This document shows positions 29,635 to 37,736 of a stretch of DNA of 64,000 nucleotides, piece after piece. The stretch spans positions 1,146,394 through 1,210,393 of the forward strand of contig NC_019702.1 of the NCBI RefSeq assembly GCF_000317085.1, given 5' to 3'. Below the pieces are notes generated by a model. That model was not told the origin of the DNA and ran no database searches. It saw nothing but the letters and a program-made list of their open reading frames with translations. The translations under genes and the position numbers were made by a program. The DNA is from Synechococcus sp. PCC 7502. GTDB taxonomy: Bacteria > Cyanobacteriota > Cyanobacteriia > Pseudanabaenales > Pseudanabaenaceae. The stretch's first letter is position 1. Each line of letters starts with the position of its first letter.

Positions 29635-30143
29635 GAGCCTGTTTCATATCTCATGAGTAGCAATTGTTTTTAGCATCAAGCGAATAAAGCAAAGATTGAG
29701 TTTAGCTGTAGCATTAACGAGAGTTCTCTCAAAGTTCTTAACTAAGATTTTGCATCTTTCAACCCAAGTATCCACCTTGTCGGCACAACTACAAACCCAG
29801 ACAGACCTTTTTCTGCCTTCTGTTGCTTTGATACCTTAGGAGAAATTTCAAACCTAATCTTAGTCATAATCTCAGGATAAACCTTCTGTAAATCAGTCGT
29901 CAATTTTTCGATATGATAACCACTATCCAGCAATATCGTAGTTAGGGTAATGTCATCTGGCTTCGATTTGAAGTAATCAATGTTAAACGTTAACATCTCA
30001 ATCAGTCCTTGGTCATCTGATACATTTGCTCTTGTTAAATAGGTAAAGAAAGGAAATCCCAGTATGTCAACGGCTAAATGTCTTTTGATCCCGTTAGTTG
30101 CTTTGTAGGAGCAGAAGCCCTTGGATTCTATACTTGCATTATA
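29635..30143 (-). mobile_element. IS5-family element, remnant with inverted orientation
   Basis: These roughly 509 bases match the 3' half of the complete IS5-type element at 31212-32101, in opposite orientation. They include its right-end repeat (GAGCCTGTTTCATATCTCATGAG) and the transposase C-terminal part (VSDDQGLIEMLTFN, SGFVVVPTRW). The remnant ends at TA 30142-30143, where the IS630 copy was inserted within it. TATA flanks its outer end (29631-29634). The transposase half is not functional alone. Confidence 0.88.
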
Positions 30144-30151
30144 CCAAATCG

Positions 30152-30718
30152 TTAAATACGAGCTACAGATAAAGCCTCTAAAATATAATCCCACCCAACA
30201 ATCGAAGCAATTACCTCCTGAGTCATAACTTCTAACCTTTCCCGCATTAATGCACGCAACTGGTCAAGATCTTTTGGCAGTTTCCACCTCAACCCTAATT
30301 TGAAATGCTGCCACACTCTTTCAATGGGATTAGTCTCAGGTGCATGGGCAGGCTGAAATAGCAAAATAATATTTTTAGGAATCTTTAACCGTTTTGCTCT
30401 GTGTGCTCCTGCTTGATCCACTTGCATAACGATGATGTCACCTTGAAAATATGTGCTTACTAAGTTCAGAAATACTTGGAAGCATTCACTATTAAGGTGA
30501 GTAAATTCATAGAAAAAGCTTTCCCCTGTTGATGGTTCTACAATTCGATAGAGGTAAGTTGCCTTAAACTGCCACTGAACTTTACCTTTGGGTTTGACTC
30601 CTCTTGCTGTGATCTTCCTTCCACTAATTGTCTTTAACCCAATTCGTGTTTCATCTTGACAAAAGAATCTCACTTTGCCATTTAGTCCGATTATATTAAT
30701 GCCGAACCATGCAATCAT
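30152..30718 (-). CDS. IS630 transposase OrfB (copy 2)
   Basis: 188 residues, differing from copy 1 by one residue (Thr for Ala before YFQGD). The DDE residues are present as in copy 1. Because the element lost one terminal repeat and the OrfA start, this gene is probably silent, but the protein could act in trans if expressed. The coding run upstream has seven A where copy 1 has six. Confidence 0.88.
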   Translation of the reverse strand: MIAWFGINIIGLNGKVRFFCQDETRIGLKTISGRKITARGVKPKGKVQWQFKATYLYRIVEPSTGESFFYEFTHLNSECFQVFLNLVSTYFQGDIIVMQVDQAGAHRAKRLKIPKNIILLFQPAHAPETNPIERVWQHFKLGLRWKLPKDLDQLRALMRERLEVMTQEVIASIVGWDYILEALSVARI

Positions 30719-30720
30719 GC

Positions 30721-31211
30721 TTATATTACTGGCAAGGTTTTTTTATATGCTTCTACTTGCTCTTCTGACTTTCCTGCACTGACTGGACGTGTCACTTTCG
30801 GTCTGGCTTTCAGCCGATATCGGACTAGATGATGCACAGTTTTATAGTTTGATTTGATTCCTAATTGGTTCTCTAACCATTGGCAGATCTGCCCATAACT
30901 TTCAAAGCCTTCTGCTTCTTCCAGCTTTTTTATCAATGCTTTCTGCGCCCATTGTGGAATACTCTGTTTTCGCCCTGTTCTAGGTTTATGTCCTAATAGT
31001 CCTACTATTCCCCCTTTGCGATAATTCCCTAACCAATCTTGCAATGTAACTCGATGCCGTCCCAGTATTGTCGATGCTGTCTGGATTGTGCTTGCTTGTT
31101 TTGTTTTTAACAGATACAGCATCTGAATTCTTTCTTTATCTGATGCGGTCTTTTGCACTCTCAGCATATGTTTTAGCTCTTCTTCACTTTCGCTGATCTC
31201 TAATTTGTATA
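30721..31211 (-). pseudogene. IS630 transposase OrfA (copy 2), 5' end lost
   Basis: The native start codon is missing. The open frame now runs into the adjacent IS5 terminal repeat, giving a chimeric N-terminus (IIDMKQALYKLEIS), which could allow a fortuitous start. The end differs from copy 1 (EAYKKTLPVI) because of the extra A in the A-run. The two HTH segments are intact. Confidence 0.8.
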
Positions 31212-31258
31212 GAGCCTGTTTCATATCTATTATGAGCAAGATGTATGATACTTAGAAA

Positions 31259-31570
31259 ATGCTAAATCCATACTCAAGTAGCCTAACAGATAAAGAATGG
31301 GAAATTATAGAACCATTGCTCCCAAAGAAAAAGCAAACTAGACCGCCAACTTGGACAAAAAGACAAATTTTAGACGGCATACTCTACCAACTCAAAAACG
31401 GTTGTAATTGGCGAGATATGCCCCGAGACTTACCACCATTCTCTACAGTGTATCGATACTACAAGGAGTGGAAAGATACAGGTACATTTACTGCGATTAT
31501 GGAAGCTTTGCATTCAACAGCCCGTGAACAGTCAAAAAAAATCAAAATGGACAACTTTAATCATCATTGA
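31259..31570 (+). CDS. IS5-family transposase, first frame
   Basis: 103 residues begin MLNPYSSSLTDKEWEIIEPLL and contain RQILDGILYQLKNGCNWRDMP and FSTVYRYYKEWKDTG. This is the DUF4096-type DNA-binding part of IS5/IS427 transposases. The frame ends shortly after a run of eight A (about 31535-31542), which is the likely frameshift point into the catalytic part. Confidence 0.88.
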   Translation: MLNPYSSSLTDKEWEIIEPLLPKKKQTRPPTWTKRQILDGILYQLKNGCNWRDMPRDLPPFSTVYRYYKEWKDTGTFTAIMEALHSTAREQSKKIKMDNFNHH

Positions 31571-31994
31571 CTCACAAGCAGTGAAAAATACTTGTAATGC
31601 AAGTATAGAATCCAAGGGCTTCTGCTCCTACAAAGCAACTAACGGGATCAAAAGACATTTAGCAGTTGACATACTGGGATTTCCTTTTTTCACGTATTTA
31701 ACAAGAGCAAATGTATCAGATGACCAAGGACTGATTGAGATGTTAACGTTTAACATTGATTACTTCAAATCGAAGCCAGATGACATTACGCTAACTACGA
31801 TATTGCTGGATAGTGGTTATCATATCGAAAAATTGACGACTGATTTACAGAAGGTTTATCCTGAGATTATGACTAAGATTAGGTTTGAAATTTCTCCTAA
31901 GGTATCAAAGCAAAAGCAGGCAGAAAAAGGTCTGTCTGGGTTTGTAGTTGTGCCGACAAGGTGGGTAATTGGGTTGAAAGATGCAAAATCTTAG
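31524..31994 (+). CDS. IS5-family transposase, second frame (catalytic)
   Basis: 156 residues carry the DDE part: IIIDSQAVKNT (first Asp), LLDSGYHIEKL (second Asp) and a C-terminal segment ending SGFVVVPTRWVIGLKD. The third acid normally lies in the following ERTLV/NATAKLN region, which continues after the stop at 31992-31994 in a different phase. The element may therefore need frameshifts or be slightly damaged. It overlaps the first frame by 47 bases. Confidence 0.82.
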   Translation: MNSQKKSKWTTLIIIDSQAVKNTCNASIESKGFCSYKATNGIKRHLAVDILGFPFFTYLTRANVSDDQGLIEMLTFNIDYFKSKPDDITLTTILLDSGYHIEKLTTDLQKVYPEIMTKIRFEISPKVSKQKQAEKGLSGFVVVPTRWVIGLKDAKS

Positions 31995-32620: not shown

Positions 32621-33250
32621 ATGACCTTCGACTTTCTGACGCTTGAACATGTGAAAGACCTAGTCCAGAATTATGGATATGGAGTAATATTTCTGGGAAT
32701 CATGCTAGAAAATGCGGGAATTCCGATCCCCGGTGAGACTATTACCTTAGTAGGGGGATTTTTAGCAGGTAGTGGGGAATTAAAATATCCCTTTGTGCTG
32801 GGTGCCGCAGTCAGTGGAGCTATTATTGGCGATAGTGCAGGCTATTGGCTTGGACGATGGGGTGGGATGAACTTAGTGGAATCTGTGGCTAAGATATTTA
32901 AAATTGAGGCTGAGGAAGTAGTCAAAGCCAGAGAAAAATTTACTGCTAATTCAGATCGGGCTGTATTTTTTGGTAGATTTATTGCGCTGCTAAGAATTTT
33001 TGCTGGTCCTATGGCTGGACTAACTGGTATGCCCTATCGGCGGTTTTTATTTTTTAATGCTCTAGGTGCGATCTCCTGGGGAACAATTATGACTGCTCTT
33101 GCTTATTTTACGGGCAGCTTTATTCCCTTAGATAAGTTAATAGATTGGGTTTTAAGATTTGGAATATTTGCTTTAATTGCTTTAATAGTTTGGGTCTGTG
33201 TAGTCCGTTTACAAAAGACTTTAGCTCAAGGTATGGATTTAGAAAAATAG
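32621..33250 (+). CDS. DedA-family membrane protein
   Basis: 209 residues with four to five membrane segments. The DedA signature is clear: ENAGIPIPGETITLVGGFLAG, GDSAGYWLGRWGG and the FGRFIALLRIFAGPMAGL arginine region. DedA proteins act in lipid scrambling or undecaprenyl-phosphate/lipid-carrier recycling and need proton motive force. The 3' end overlaps the carbamoylase gene by 25 bases, tail-to-tail. Confidence 0.9.
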   Translation: MTFDFLTLEHVKDLVQNYGYGVIFLGIMLENAGIPIPGETITLVGGFLAGSGELKYPFVLGAAVSGAIIGDSAGYWLGRWGGMNLVESVAKIFKIEAEEVVKAREKFTANSDRAVFFGRFIALLRIFAGPMAGLTGMPYRRFLFFNALGAISWGTIMTALAYFTGSFIPLDKLIDWVLRFGIFALIALIVWVCVVRLQKTLAQGMDLEK

Positions 33251-34488
33251 CTGTCTAGTTTCAAAATAGTGTGTAAAAGCACATTGGCACCTTGGATACA
33301 AAGCTCTGGGGAGGTAAACTCAGTTTCAGAATGACTTACGCCATTTTGACTTGGCACAAAAATCATTCCCATTGCTGTCAGCTTCGCCATTTCTTGAGCA
33401 TCATGTCCCGCCCGACTCGGTAAATGTAGATAGGTTAGCCCTAAATCTTCACAGGTTTCAGCGATCGCAGATTGAATTACGGAATTGCATAGCGCAGGTT
33501 GGTTTTGCATATACGGGTGCAAACTAATTTCTGTTTTGGTTGCTGTGGCGATCGCTTTAAGATCGGCAGTTAATATTTCCAATAAATGATCTAGGTGCCG
33601 ATCGGATAAATCCCGAATATCCAAAGACATTTCCACAAAATCAGGAATTGTATTAGGGGCATTGGGTTTAACTATCACTCTGCCTACGGTTGCCACTTGT
33701 TGTCCGGGTAGATTTGCTAAGTGATTTATACTTAATACTACCTGTGCGGCGGCAACGAGGGCATCTTGACGCATGGACATGGGTGTAGTTCCTGCATGAC
33801 TAGCACTACCTTTAACAATAATTTTAAAACGCCGTTGCCCTACGATTCCTTCCACAACTCCAATTTGGACTTCAGCACTTTCTAATACTGGACCTTGTTC
33901 AATATGCAGTTCTACAAAAGCAGCCAGTTCTGATCGGTGGCGTTTTGCCTGCATAATTTGCTCCCAGTTTCCACCAATTCTACTTAAACAGGACTGAATG
34001 TCTAGTCCACCGTAATTTTGCAGATCTGGAATCAGGCTCCCAGCCATTGCTTTACAGCCGATCATGCTTCCTTCTTCATCGGTAAAGACAATTACTTCTA
34101 AGGGATGGTTGAGTTGTACAGAACTTTCTTGGAGCGATCGCACCACTTCTATAGCTGCTAAGACCCCGTATGCCCCATCATAAAGCCCCCCATTAGGCAC
34201 AGTATCAAGATGGGAACCCGTAGCGATTGCAGGCAGGTCTGGATTTTTGCCATTTGAATTTTTACTACTATAGCGACCGATGATATTACCAGCAGTATCA
34301 ACTCTAACCTGCATTCCAGTTTCAGCCATCCATTGCTGTACTAAGTCACGAGCTTTAACATCGGCGGGACTAAAAGCTATACGTTGAACACCTCCATTAG
34401 CCAACTGACCAATTGTTCCTAACTTTGCAATAGTATTTAAGAGGCGATCGCTATTGATTGAGACCTTGGTTAAAATTGAGGATGACAT
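33226..34488 (-). CDS. Zn-dependent N-carbamoylase/allantoate amidohydrolase (M20 family)
   Basis: The enzyme hydrolyses carbamoyl or ureide groups from N-carbamoyl amino acids, ureidoglycolate or allantoate; the exact substrate is unknown. The 420 residues show M20 metal motifs TGSHLDTVPNGGLYDGAYG (His, Asp), FTDEEGSMIGCKAMAG (Glu), ELHIEQGPVLE (His) and SRAGHDAQ. The frame is open 57 codons further upstream. The ATG at 34488 is chosen because MSSSILTKVSINSDRLL is the family N-terminus and the longer form would run through the divergent promoter and into the regulator gene. Confidence 0.88.
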   Translation of the reverse strand: MSSSILTKVSINSDRLLNTIAKLGTIGQLANGGVQRIAFSPADVKARDLVQQWMAETGMQVRVDTAGNIIGRYSSKNSNGKNPDLPAIATGSHLDTVPNGGLYDGAYGVLAAIEVVRSLQESSVQLNHPLEVIVFTDEEGSMIGCKAMAGSLIPDLQNYGGLDIQSCLSRIGGNWEQIMQAKRHRSELAAFVELHIEQGPVLESAEVQIGVVEGIVGQRRFKIIVKGSASHAGTTPMSMRQDALVAAAQVVLSINHLANLPGQQVATVGRVIVKPNAPNTIPDFVEMSLDIRDLSDRHLDHLLEILTADLKAIATATKTEISLHPYMQNQPALCNSVIQSAIAETCEDLGLTYLHLPSRAGHDAQEMAKLTAMGMIFVPSQNGVSHSETEFTSPELCIQGANVLLHTILKLDSYFSKSIP

Positions 34489-34503
34489 AAAAAAACTTGC
34501 AAA

Positions 34504-34517
34504 GTAAAGGCACTTAC
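34504..34517. promoter_or_regulatory. Candidate NtcA-binding site (GTA-N8-TAC)
   Basis: GTAAAGGCACTTAC matches the NtcA consensus GTA-N8-TAC in the divergent promoter of a nitrogen-catabolic cluster. NtcA is the global nitrogen regulator of cyanobacteria. A match by six fixed bases is expected by chance every few kilobases. The site is close to the carbamoylase ATG (about 15 bases) and no -10 lies at the usual 22-23 bases, so this is a suggestion only. Confidence 0.35.
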
Positions 34518-34518
34518 T

Positions 34519-34535
34519 ATGTATACTGTATACAT
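34519..34535. promoter_or_regulatory. Palindromic operator, probably for the GntR regulator
   Basis: ATGTATACTGTATACAT is a 17-bp palindrome, perfect except for the centre base. It lies between the divergent carbamoylase (ATG 34488) and GntR regulator (start 34569). FCD-type GntR proteins usually bind short AT-rich palindromes of this kind. The position would allow control of both genes, including autoregulation. Confidence 0.72.
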
Positions 34536-34568
34536 CAAAACCATGCAAGATAATAAGGAACTTATACC

Positions 34569-35261
34569 TTGAGTTTGTCCACGATCCAAAGAAGCCAATC
34601 TTTATACGAACAGACCTATCAAGTCCTACGCACAAATATCTTTTCGGGAATGCTGGCACCTAATGAACGTCTGGTTGAAACTCAGTTGGCTGAGCGTTTA
34701 CAGGTTAGTCGCACTCCAATCCGTGAAGCTATTCGTAAATTGCAGCAAGAAGGTTTGGTTACCTCCGATACCAGTGGGGGAATGCGAGTAACAACCCTTT
34801 CCATTGAGGATGTGATTCAGCTTTATGACTGTCGGATTGCCCTAGAACAACTTTCTGTAACCGGAGCCTGTGATCACGCCAGTGCCGTTGAGATTGAGCA
34901 GCTAGAAGAATACGTGATTTCTGCCGAAAAGATCGCCCATGCTAAATCTACAAATCCTGCCAAACTTTTAGAACTAGATTATCAATTTCATCACCTGATT
35001 GCGGAAAGTTCGGGGAATAAGTGGTTAGTCTCCTTACTGGAGCAGGTATTTGATAAGATGTTTCTCCTGCGATTGCGGACAACTAATCAGAACCCAGAAG
35101 TATTGGAAATTCGGTTAGAACACCGCCAAATTTTTACAGCGATCGCCAAGAGAAATTCTAATTTAGCAAAGGAAGAGATTTATAGTCATCTCACCAATAG
35201 CAAAACCAGAGTTGTTAGTGCCGTGGAAATTCTTCAGACAGGTATAAATTCCAAAGATTAA
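34569..35261 (+). CDS. GntR-family regulator with FCD ligand-binding domain
   Basis: 230 residues. An N-terminal winged HTH (LAERLQVSRTPIREAIRKLQQEGLV, about residues 40-65) is followed by a helical FCD domain with the metal/ligand motif DYQFHHLIAESSGN and a later EHRQIFTAI. FCD members sense carboxylates or related catabolites. The start is TTG, supported by AAGGAA eight bases upstream. It probably controls the divergent carbamoylase gene and the four-gene cluster downstream. Confidence 0.9.
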   Translation: MSLSTIQRSQSLYEQTYQVLRTNIFSGMLAPNERLVETQLAERLQVSRTPIREAIRKLQQEGLVTSDTSGGMRVTTLSIEDVIQLYDCRIALEQLSVTGACDHASAVEIEQLEEYVISAEKIAHAKSTNPAKLLELDYQFHHLIAESSGNKWLVSLLEQVFDKMFLLRLRTTNQNPEVLEIRLEHRQIFTAIAKRNSNLAKEEIYSHLTNSKTRVVSAVEILQTGINSKD

Positions 35262-35286
35262 TTTTGAAAATCCTTAAATAAAAATC

Positions 35287-35727
35287 ATGACTGACTTAAC
35301 AACCCCAATCGAACAACTAAATACGGAAGATACAGCAACAAAAAAAATATTCATTTGTGGTTCTGCCCTCAAAGGTCAACCCGATCATCAAAACCTGCAA
35401 TCTGCTAAGTTTATAAAAACAGCTAAAACCAAACCTCTCTATCGTCTTCATGCGGCTGAAAACGGATGGCATCCTGCAATTTATGAAGTAGAAAATGGAG
35501 GGATTAGTATCCCAGGGGAAATATATGAGTTAACGATCGCCCAATATGAGTATCTACTAGCAAATGAACCGCCTCACATGTATCCCAGTGATGTAATTTC
35601 CGAAGACGGCGAAATTCTCACAGCAATGCTTTACCCACGGGAACTGGTGGAAAAACACCAATGGCTAGATATTTCAGATTTAGGCGGATGGGCAAATTAT
35701 AAGACAATGAACACTGCGCCAGATTAA
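35287..35727 (+). CDS. Allophanate-hydrolase C-terminal-like (GGCT-fold) protein
   Basis: 146 residues. The segment IFICGSALKGQPDHQNL followed by TKPLYRLHAAENGWHPAIY closely resembles the C-terminal domain of allophanate hydrolases (AtzF type), which has a gamma-glutamylcyclotransferase-like fold and acts on N-carboxycarbamate. Here it is free-standing. It starts 25 bases after the GntR gene, so it is likely in the same operon and in a carbamate/ureide pathway. The amidase half of allophanate hydrolase is not in the window. Confidence 0.75.
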   Translation: MTDLTTPIEQLNTEDTATKKIFICGSALKGQPDHQNLQSAKFIKTAKTKPLYRLHAAENGWHPAIYEVENGGISIPGEIYELTIAQYEYLLANEPPHMYPSDVISEDGEILTAMLYPRELVEKHQWLDISDLGGWANYKTMNTAPD

Positions 35728-35817
35728 GCAGCATCTTGATATTCAACATATAATCAAGAAAAACTATCTTCATTTCACTTGTTAAATTTTTTAATTTTTA
35801 AATTTGCGATCTGAACT

Positions 35818-36732
35818 ATGGCTAAGCAACTCTTGACTACAGAAGAACTCAAGTCTTTAAATGTCCGCTCCAATACTCAAGGTTTGATCCGCTTGGCTTT
35901 TCATTTAGGCGTGATGGGGGTTAGCGGTTATCTGTGGGCAACGAATTTGAGTGGTGATCGCTGGTATATTGCCGTTCCTGCTTTAGTTCTATACGGGTTT
36001 AGTTTTGCCATCATGTTCGCACCTCTGCATGAAAGTTCCCATCGTACTGCCTTTGCCAATAATCAGTTGAGTGATGCGATCGCTTGGTTCGCTGGATTAC
36101 TATCTTTTTATAACAGCACTTTTTATCGGCAATATCACAAATGGCATCACCGTTATACGCAAATTCCCGATCAAGACCCTGAACTCAGTGATCCAAAACC
36201 GACAAACTTACAAGAATATTTGCTAGAAATTAGTGGCTTACCTTGGTGGATTGGCAAAATTAAAACCCACTTGCGGGTGGCATCAGGTCTGGTAGATGAC
36301 TATATTTTTATCCCTGAAGCGCAAAGGAAAGCGGTAATTAGTTCAACTCGATGGCAATTATTAGTGTATGGTTTGGCGATCGCTATTTCCATTGGGTTTA
36401 GACAACCTTGGTTTCTCTTATATTGGCTATTACCTTTAGCAGTGGGGCAGCCTTTTTTGCGCTTTATTTTACTTACCGAGCATACAGGTTGCACCAATGA
36501 TGACAATGGGCTGACTAATACAAGAACTACTCTCACCCTGCCAATTTTACGTTACCTAATGTGGAATATTCCTTTCCATACTGAACATCATCTTTATCCT
36601 TCCATTCCCTTTTACTTACTTCCCACTGCCCATGAGAAGTTAAGTAGTCACTTTGCTCACATTGGAGATGGGTATGTGAATGTTAATTTGGAAATAATCA
36701 ATAATATCAGTGGTCGTGAGATCGCAGTATGA
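35818..36732 (+). CDS. Membrane fatty-acid-desaturase-type oxygenase
   Basis: 304 residues with four likely membrane helices and the three histidine boxes of the desaturase/hydroxylase superfamily: H71-E-S-S-H75, HKWHH (107-111) and FHTEHH near residue 260. These bind a di-iron centre that activates O2 with electrons from ferredoxin. A TEHTGC segment near residue 220 adds a further His. The substrate is unknown; carotenoid, fatty-acid and small amine/alkane hydroxylases all share this fold. Its stop overlaps the next start (ATGA). Confidence 0.82.
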   Translation: MAKQLLTTEELKSLNVRSNTQGLIRLAFHLGVMGVSGYLWATNLSGDRWYIAVPALVLYGFSFAIMFAPLHESSHRTAFANNQLSDAIAWFAGLLSFYNSTFYRQYHKWHHRYTQIPDQDPELSDPKPTNLQEYLLEISGLPWWIGKIKTHLRVASGLVDDYIFIPEAQRKAVISSTRWQLLVYGLAIAISIGFRQPWFLLYWLLPLAVGQPFLRFILLTEHTGCTNDDNGLTNTRTTLTLPILRYLMWNIPFHTEHHLYPSIPFYLLPTAHEKLSSHFAHIGDGYVNVNLEIINNISGREIAV

Positions 36733-37736
36733 ATCTGTTTGTAATTCAAAACTTTGAACTGCAATGTGGAATCGTCCTCCCAGAGGCAAAGCTTGGGTAT
36801 CAAACCCATGGAGAACTAAATAGCGATCGCTCCAATGTCATTCTGTATCCCACTTCCTACGGCGCACAACACCCCGATATTGAATGGTTAATTGCCAAGG
36901 AGGGAATTCTCGATCCAAGTCAATGGTTTATTATCATTCCGAATATGTTTGGGAATGGACTTTCTAGTTCTCCCAGTAATTGTGCAGAATGTGGCTTAGC
37001 AGAACAGGGATTTTGGTTTAGCCATTGGGATAATGTGCGTGCCCAAGAACAACTATTACGAAAAGTTTTTGGTATCGAGCGTCTGGCTCTGATCTATGGC
37101 TGGTCAATGGGGGCGCAGCAGGCATATCATTGGGGTAGTTTGTATCCAGATCGGGTTGAGAGAATTGCGGCTCTATGCGGTACTGCCCAGACTACCGATC
37201 ATAATCGAATTTTTTTGGAAAGTTTGCGATCGGCTTTAACCTCTGATCCCACTTGGAATGGTAGCGGCTTTGATGGGTTTCCAGATCGGGGCTTACATAC
37301 CTTTGCTCTGATCTATGCCAGTTGGGCAGCTTCCCCTGCTTTTTACCAAGCGGGACTGTATTATCAATTTGGCTATAGTTCTTTAGCAGATTATTTAGAA
37401 CGAGGTTGGGAAGCCAATTATCGTAAACGCGATCCCCGTAATCTGATTGCAATGATCGATACGTGGTTAAGATGTGATGTCAGTGATAATCCCATATATA
37501 AGGGTGATTACGCCTTGGCGTTAGCCTCTATTCAAGCCGAAACTCTGGTAATGCCCAGTGCCAGCGATCTTTACTTTACTCCCGCCGATTGCCAAAGGGA
37601 AGCAAATATGATTCCTAAAGCTAAGTACCAAGTTATTGCCTCAATTTGGGGACATAGGGCAGGCAATCCCTATCAAAACCCCGAAGACGCTAACTTTATC
37701 CGTCAAGCGATCGCTTTATTAATTGCTCCAGTTTAG
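36729..37736 (+). CDS. Alpha/beta-hydrolase related to homoserine O-acetyltransferase (MetX-like)
   Basis: 335 residues. The MetX-like parts are the N-terminal YQTHGELN, FIIPNMFGNGLSSS and the nucleophile elbow YGWSMGAQQAYHW (Ser near residue 127). The histidine of the triad lies in SIWGHRAGNP. It lacks the typical MetX lid spacing and is shorter, so a different acyl transfer or hydrolysis reaction is likely. Translation is coupled to the desaturase gene, which implies a shared pathway. Confidence 0.78.
   Translation: MNLFVIQNFELQCGIVLPEAKLGYQTHGELNSDRSNVILYPTSYGAQHPDIEWLIAKEGILDPSQWFIIIPNMFGNGLSSSPSNCAECGLAEQGFWFSHWDNVRAQEQLLRKVFGIERLALIYGWSMGAQQAYHWGSLYPDRVERIAALCGTAQTTDHNRIFLESLRSALTSDPTWNGSGFDGFPDRGLHTFALIYASWAASPAFYQAGLYYQFGYSSLADYLERGWEANYRKRDPRNLIAMIDTWLRCDVSDNPIYKGDYALALASIQAETLVMPSASDLYFTPADCQREANMIPKAKYQVIASIWGHRAGNPYQNPEDANFIRQAIALLIAPV

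Follow-up and report, generated by a model that had tools for sequence, protein, structure and literature searches.

Introduction

Bacterial gene sets for urate and allantoin breakdown encode HpxO, UraH, UraD, PuuE and AllC, and we found the same enzymes in Synechococcus sp. PCC 7502. This cyanobacterium differs from the known sets in that its genes are located at three places, which are joined by one operator of an FCD-type GntR regulator. It also differs in its end step, where a stand-alone protein of the AH_C/GGCT fold (AHC) is present without AllA or UGlyAH above cut-off, and in having a co-located Rieske oxygenase gene without any XDH match. The AHC gene lies in a 64,000-nucleotide stretch (NC_019702.1, positions 1,146,394 to 1,210,393; hereafter the window), as the third of five neighboring genes at 33226-37736. 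This five-gene cluster is best explained as two modules that have come to lie side by side in this genome. Together with this split, we consider it probable that the AllC-type, GntR and AHC genes (module A) form the terminal, ureide-handling section of a purine regulon, in whose pathway AHC has its role. The genes of a membrane desaturase-type protein and a MetX-like hydrolase (module B) form a unit of their own, whose position downstream of AHC here is incidental.

In both family match and fold, AHC is similar to the C-terminal domain of allophanate hydrolase (PF21986; 4gyr and 4iss), a domain that decarboxylates N-carboxycarbamate. However, AHC stands alone with no amidase domain, has an EPPxMYP segment and occurs in a purine context. 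Its best fold match is c4763 of uropathogenic E. coli (5c5z; TMq 0.76, 27% identity), which has the same Glu residue and for which we know of no function. A cyanobacterial c4763-type protein differs from AHC in adjoining an isochorismatase-like hydrolase and not purine genes. In this locus (L031, 702-1883), the c4763-type AH_C gene lies between a transporter permease-like open reading frame (ORF) and the hydrolase gene, both named by eye, and perhaps serves biuret or allophanate metabolism. AHC also shares its overall fold with GGCT/GGACT proteins (Foldseek TMq 0.50-0.57), from which it is set apart by an identity of 15-20% and, again, by the purine context.

The regulator resembles the FadR subfamily of GntR proteins in its FCD domain and in its palindrome, TGTATACWGTATACA, which fits the TKGT/ACMA boxes of FadR-subfamily sites as given in a survey (PMC4494728). 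Compared with the regulators surveyed there, it is cyanobacterial and goes with purine genes; the survey table contains no cyanobacterial FadR-subfamily regulator (PMC4494728). Our literature search, outside of which most subscription journals lay, found neither a cyanobacterial purine regulon of this kind nor an AH_C/GGCT protein acting on ureides, and this silence is a weak sign of novelty. The search also yielded nothing on N-carboxycarbamate and, for c4763, a single paper about another bacterium.

AHC genes among purine-breakdown genes

We compared the best 80 of 192 AHC relatives confirmed in a GTDB genome scan, all titled cyanobacteria (hereafter the 80 named loci). AllC is found near AHC in 52 of these loci, a GntR relative in 25, PuuE in 20, UraD and UraH in 14 each, and HpxO in 10. 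Named neighbors of AHC include PuuE allantoinase, 2-oxo-4-hydroxy-4-carboxy-5-ureidoimidazoline (OHCU) decarboxylase and hydroxyisourate hydrolase, as well as 8-oxoguanine deaminase and dihydropyrimidinase. At least one other purine enzyme is encoded near AHC in 67 of the 80 loci, and in 36 of the 41 loci with full flanks. On a closed Pseudanabaena plasmid (L185; NZ_AP017563.1, 8840-33226), AHC is part of a near-complete purine-breakdown island with the gene order GntR, AllC-type Zn-dependent hydrolase, 8-oxoguanine deaminase, ABC, UraH, AHC, ring-opening amidohydrolase, PuuE, UraD and HpxO. The ring-opening amidohydrolase of this plasmid belongs to the AtzD/TrzD family. A Novosphingobium and a Photobacterium plasmid also gave matches, and there is no annotation at those sites.

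We then searched 292 genomes of the phylum. AHC was matched in 26 of them, and the four with distant matches only were dropped before counting, leaving 22 genomes with a close AHC. UraD (PF09349) is present in 33 genomes, and all 21 of those inside the class of the window have a close AHC. UraD is found in 21 of the 22 close-AHC genomes, with G116 as the exception, while an AllC-type gene is found in all 22 and is single-copy in 21. The presence and absence of AHC, UraD and the AllC-type gene are concordant even inside genera (G193 versus G282, and G121 versus G054). Fisher's test gives p ~1e-22 for co-occurrence in the 292 genomes when relatedness is ignored. In Synechococcus sp. PCC 7502 itself, HpxO, UraH, UraD and PuuE score above the NCBIfam cut-offs, and every step from urate to allantoate hydrolysis has an assigned enzyme. 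No XDH match (PF02738) was found in this genome; XDH is present in 12 of the 22 AHC genomes. The purine neighbors, the shared operator described below and the occurrence of AHC in every UraD genome of the class indicate that AHC belongs to purine/allantoin breakdown. The original prediction had pointed to ureide or carbamate breakdown for the AllC-type and AHC genes. Its ureide reading is supported, as the neighborhoods, operator and co-occurrence place these two and the GntR gene within a purine/allantoin regulon.

A predicted shared operator

The AllC-type and GntR genes are divergent, and the 80-base gap between them contains a perfect 17-bp palindrome, ATGTATACTGTATACAT (34519-34535), the predicted operator of the GntR regulator. 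This palindrome, which the original prediction did not name, is the only match at up to two mismatches in the window. Allowing one mismatch to TGTATACWGTATACA, we found five sites at three places in the genome: the single site between AllC and GntR-AHC, two perfect sites between UraH-UraD-PuuE and HpxO-Rieske, and two sites between a guanine deaminase operon and an EamA-type transporter gene. The 22 AHC genomes have 37 such sites in 13 genomes (13 of the sites perfect), as against one site each, none perfect, in four of 22 AHC-negative genomes, which are mostly the first entries of no-match lists and not a random draw. The 80 named loci contain 59 sites at up to one mismatch, whereas 20 palindromes with permuted half-sites gave 0.25 on average and never more than 1. 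At up to two mismatches there are 89 sites, and for 80 of them a listed gene begins no more than 350 bp downstream. The downstream genes are AHC (30), AllC (23), GntR (17), porin (12), ABC ATPase (10), ABC binding protein (8), UraH (7), Rieske (4) and others. The GntR protein combines a helix-turn-helix domain (PF00392, 63.4 bits) with an FCD domain (PF07729, 79.4 bits), the hallmark of the FadR subfamily, and it presumably binds the palindrome and represses.

Two further operator-linked loci of this genome are described here. Downstream of HpxO, behind the two perfect operators, a gene (L207, 10700-11737; C3 near 2.577 Mb) encodes a VanA_C-domain Rieske oxygenase, which may replace XDH or oxidize guanine. 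Two small ORFs lie ahead of the operator-linked guanine deaminase gene (L206, 5271-9005; C3 near 0.255 Mb) and an ORF of 496 aa comes after it; none of these three ORFs has a Pfam or NCBIfam match.

Separation of the two modules

The neighborhoods of the close AHC genes were compared at 22 loci from 21 genomes (G008 has two), with Synechococcus sp. PCC 7502 itself left out. AllC is in the flanks of 13 and GntR in those of seven, while neither a desaturase nor a MetX-like gene is near AHC in any of the 22. Likewise, none of the 80 named loci has a desaturase, a MetX-like protein or a type III glutamine synthetase near AHC. The search with the desaturase matched 22 of the 292 genomes, and 17 loci were compared, leaving out the genome under study, G215 (a 6-kb contig) and three distant genomes. 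A MetX-like gene lies beside the desaturase gene in 11 of the 17, not counting a partial match at L089 (94 residues, 35%). AHC, AllC or GntR is near the desaturase gene in none of them. No operator at up to one mismatch was found at these 17 loci, and the sole match at two mismatches, in L079, is about 3.4 kb past the desaturase gene. Seven other sampled genomes have the desaturase together with a close AHC; there, these genes sit on separate contigs or 0.8 Mb or more from each other. Scattering of the genes in relatives was the condition set for refuting the original prediction. With no desaturase or MetX-like gene at any of the 80 AHC loci, the five-gene unit fails by it, and the joint pathway proposed for the ureide genes with the oxygenase and the hydrolase finds no support.

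In module B, three His motifs are present in the membrane di-iron desaturase/hydroxylase-type protein (35818-36732, plus strand; PF00487, 134 bits). A GWSMG motif is present in the MetX-like α/β hydrolase of the PRK07581 subfamily (36729-37736, plus strand; NF005757, 484.5 bits against a cut-off of 332). The desaturase scores below the cut-off for the guanitoxin arginine hydroxylase GntB (NF041365, 70 of 380 bits), and the MetX-like protein below that for the homoserine O-acetyltransferase MetX (TIGR01392, 104.7 of 500 bits). A type III glutamate-ammonia ligase (glutamine synthetase, TIGR03105) is encoded at seven of the 11 loci carrying both genes (L078, L082, L086, L087, L090, L091 and L092). 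The set of desaturase, MetX-like protein and glutamine synthetase is possibly an amine or γ-glutamyl-amide oxidation route. At L087, genes for a trimethylamine monooxygenase and a trimethylamine N-oxide demethylase-like protein are also near this set.

Gene organization in the window

All five ORFs were confirmed in the window, and Pfam and NCBIfam agree with the family names given before (M20 of the AllC subfamily, GntR with FCD, PF21986 AH_C, FA_desaturase and PRK07581). The AllC-type gene (33226-34488, minus strand) encodes an M20 amidohydrolase of the allantoate amidohydrolase subfamily. Its start was assigned to an ATG at 34488 by alignment with relatives; the mechanical ORF opens at a GTG at 34659, inside the GntR gene. 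The GntR gene (34569-35261, plus strand) begins with TTG and is followed after 25 bases by the AHC gene (35287-35727, plus strand). The tight spacing claimed for the cluster is also seen in module B, where the desaturase stop codon and the MetX-like start overlap in ATGA, but AHC and the desaturase gene are separated by 90 bases. The plus strand of this gap showed nothing resembling a promoter or terminator, and a single transcript could possibly cross it. A few kilobases from the cluster, at 29742-31994 of the window, there are ORFs that look transposase-like by eye, among them a pair of near-identical partial copies. These ORFs might have contributed to the joining of modules A and B.

The AHC and AllC-type proteins

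AHC has 146 residues and matches PF21986 (96.5 bits, cut-off 27) and PF06094 (44.2 bits, cut-off 22.8) and no other Pfam family. It is not a whole allophanate hydrolase: the amidase domain is missing, and the allophanate hydrolase model NF006043 gives 60.7 of 487 bits, at its C-terminal end only. PF04115 is not matched, so AHC is at most a functional analog of AllA/DAL3 and not a homolog. A structure model built from 21 homologs (pLDDT 85.5) matches, in this order, c4763, the C-terminal domain of allophanate hydrolase and GGCT-family proteins, with Foldseek hits to 3cry, 2rbh, 3jub and 1vkb. The EPPxMYP segment takes the place of the IPxPLGIG of aligned allophanate hydrolases, and its Glu94 is kept in all 80 named loci. 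A Glu before the P-x segment is common to AHC and c4763 and is missing from the aligned allophanate hydrolases. The alignment of AHC with YtfP stops at residue 91, before Glu94, and the GGACT glutamate was placed by eye. Because AHC stands alone and has an altered segment, we rejected its reading as a normal component of allophanate hydrolase. These genomes also encode a second family (for example, L029) that is about 30% identical to AHC and aligns with the allophanate hydrolase 4gyr at 131.8 bits. It is a different protein from AHC.

The AllC-type protein has a conserved His/Asp/Glu set, scores 451.7 bits with the allantoate amidohydrolase subfamily model NF006771 (cut-off 399), and aligns with the Arabidopsis ureidoglycolate hydrolase 4pxe (223.6 bits). 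From this homology and the gene context, its substrate would be allantoate and its product ureidoglycine. For the step that follows, AllA (PF04115) has no match in seven of the 22 AHC genomes, including that of Synechococcus sp. PCC 7502, UGlyAH is above cut-off in none of the 22, and 21 of the 22 have no second AllC-like gene. Urease is present in all 22, and urea would therefore be usable. G116 retains AHC and AllC in the absence of UraD, which suggests a place for AHC on the allantoate side of the pathway. AHC is our best candidate for the step after AllC, and the most economical assignment, with a somewhat less than even chance of being right, is the cleavage of ureidoglycolate or ureidoglycine.

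Discussion

We propose a route from urate by way of 5-hydroxyisourate, OHCU and allantoin to allantoate, which AllC may hydrolyze to ureidoglycine. The place of AHC would be the AllC step or the one directly following, where it would most probably cleave ureidoglycolate or ureidoglycine to give glyoxylate and urea, with the urea passing on to urease. The FCD-type GntR protein would bind the TGTATACWGTATACA palindromes and keep its genes repressed as long as it has no pathway acid bound, like many such regulators. A bolder proposal is that AHC is an AllA-unrelated, GGCT-fold ureidoglycolate/ureidoglycine lyase closing the cyanobacterial purine-to-glyoxylate route, and that the Rieske oxygenase oxidizes purine C8 in genomes lacking XDH. 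The two parts together are doubtful, though worth naming. If they were true, a single FCD-type GntR regulator would control a cyanobacterial form of purine breakdown whose two ends both rely on new enzymes.

Several observations weigh against our reading of module A and of AHC. Weak PF04115 matches (24-46 bits) exist in the other 15 of the 22 AHC genomes and could be real AllA relatives. Ureidoglycolate and ureidoglycine also break down without an enzyme, for ureidoglycine at 60 °C (PMC4016543). Twelve UraD genomes outside the class of the window have neither AHC nor a PF04115 match, and AHC is missing from 11 genomes that have an AllC-type gene; thus, AHC is not required by every carrier of UraD or AllC-type genes. 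An operator match at one mismatch is missing from nine of the 22 AHC genomes. The AllC-type protein does not reach the cut-off of the E. coli-type AllC equivalog TIGR03176 (271 of 597.75 bits) and in sequence it resembles E. coli AllC less than it does an L-carbamoylase with a solved structure (3n5f). Finally, AHC and the desaturase co-occur above chance, in 8 of 22 versus 14 of 270 genomes (p=4.5e-5, uncorrected for relatedness). We weigh this last point lightly, because an association about as strong is seen between AHC and the weak PF04115 matches, which occur in 69 of the 292 genomes (p=4.6e-6, likewise uncorrected).

An alternative role for AHC is that of a decarboxylase partner: AllC would cleave the ureido group to release NH3, and the N-carboxy product left behind would be decarboxylated by AHC, with AllC perhaps also taking ureidoglycolate so that no lyase is needed. 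The PF21986 match and fold shared with the allophanate hydrolase C domain, together with the position of AllC as the commonest AHC neighbor, are in line with this, and the alignment with 4pxe relates the AllC-type protein to plant UAH. However, AHC has EPPxMYP and not IPxPLGIG, carbamates of the N-carboxy product type usually decompose unaided, and the 11 genomes mentioned above have AllC-type genes without AHC. We therefore regard this role as unlikely. In an equally improbable alternative, AHC would have another place in the pathway, for example in processing a side product of the hydantoin or ureide kind or in recycling a γ-glutamyl-amine conjugate, and the end step would be non-enzymatic or carried out by an unrecognized protein. 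The GGCT fold would suit such a role, the plasmid record names AHC a γ-glutamylcyclotransferase, and genes for dihydropyrimidinase and Asp/Glu/hydantoin racemase are near some AHC genes. Against it, AHC accompanies AllC in all 22 genomes and persists without UraD in G116.

A single pathway in which the desaturase oxidizes and the MetX-like protein hydrolyzes a ureide-derived metabolite is the least credible explanation by far. AHC and the desaturase gene are on the same strand, with a 90-base gap that has no evident plus-strand terminator or promoter, and the co-occurrence given above also speaks for a connection. Nevertheless, we rejected this pathway on the counts of zero in the 80 and 22 AHC loci and in the 17 desaturase loci, and on the absence of an operator at up to one mismatch from the latter. 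The frequent partner of the desaturase/MetX-like pair is instead the type III glutamine synthetase. The separation into a purine-linked module A and an independent module B remains our preferred reading.

This case shows that adjacency in a single genome can merge two unrelated modules. The operator provides a ready handle for finding further members of the regulon, such as the Rieske oxygenase, porins and transporters. If AHC is a ureide-cleaving enzyme, a protein that is named γ-glutamylcyclotransferase or related to allophanate hydrolase would gain a precise function, and the use of purines or allantoin would become readable from many cyanobacterial genomes.

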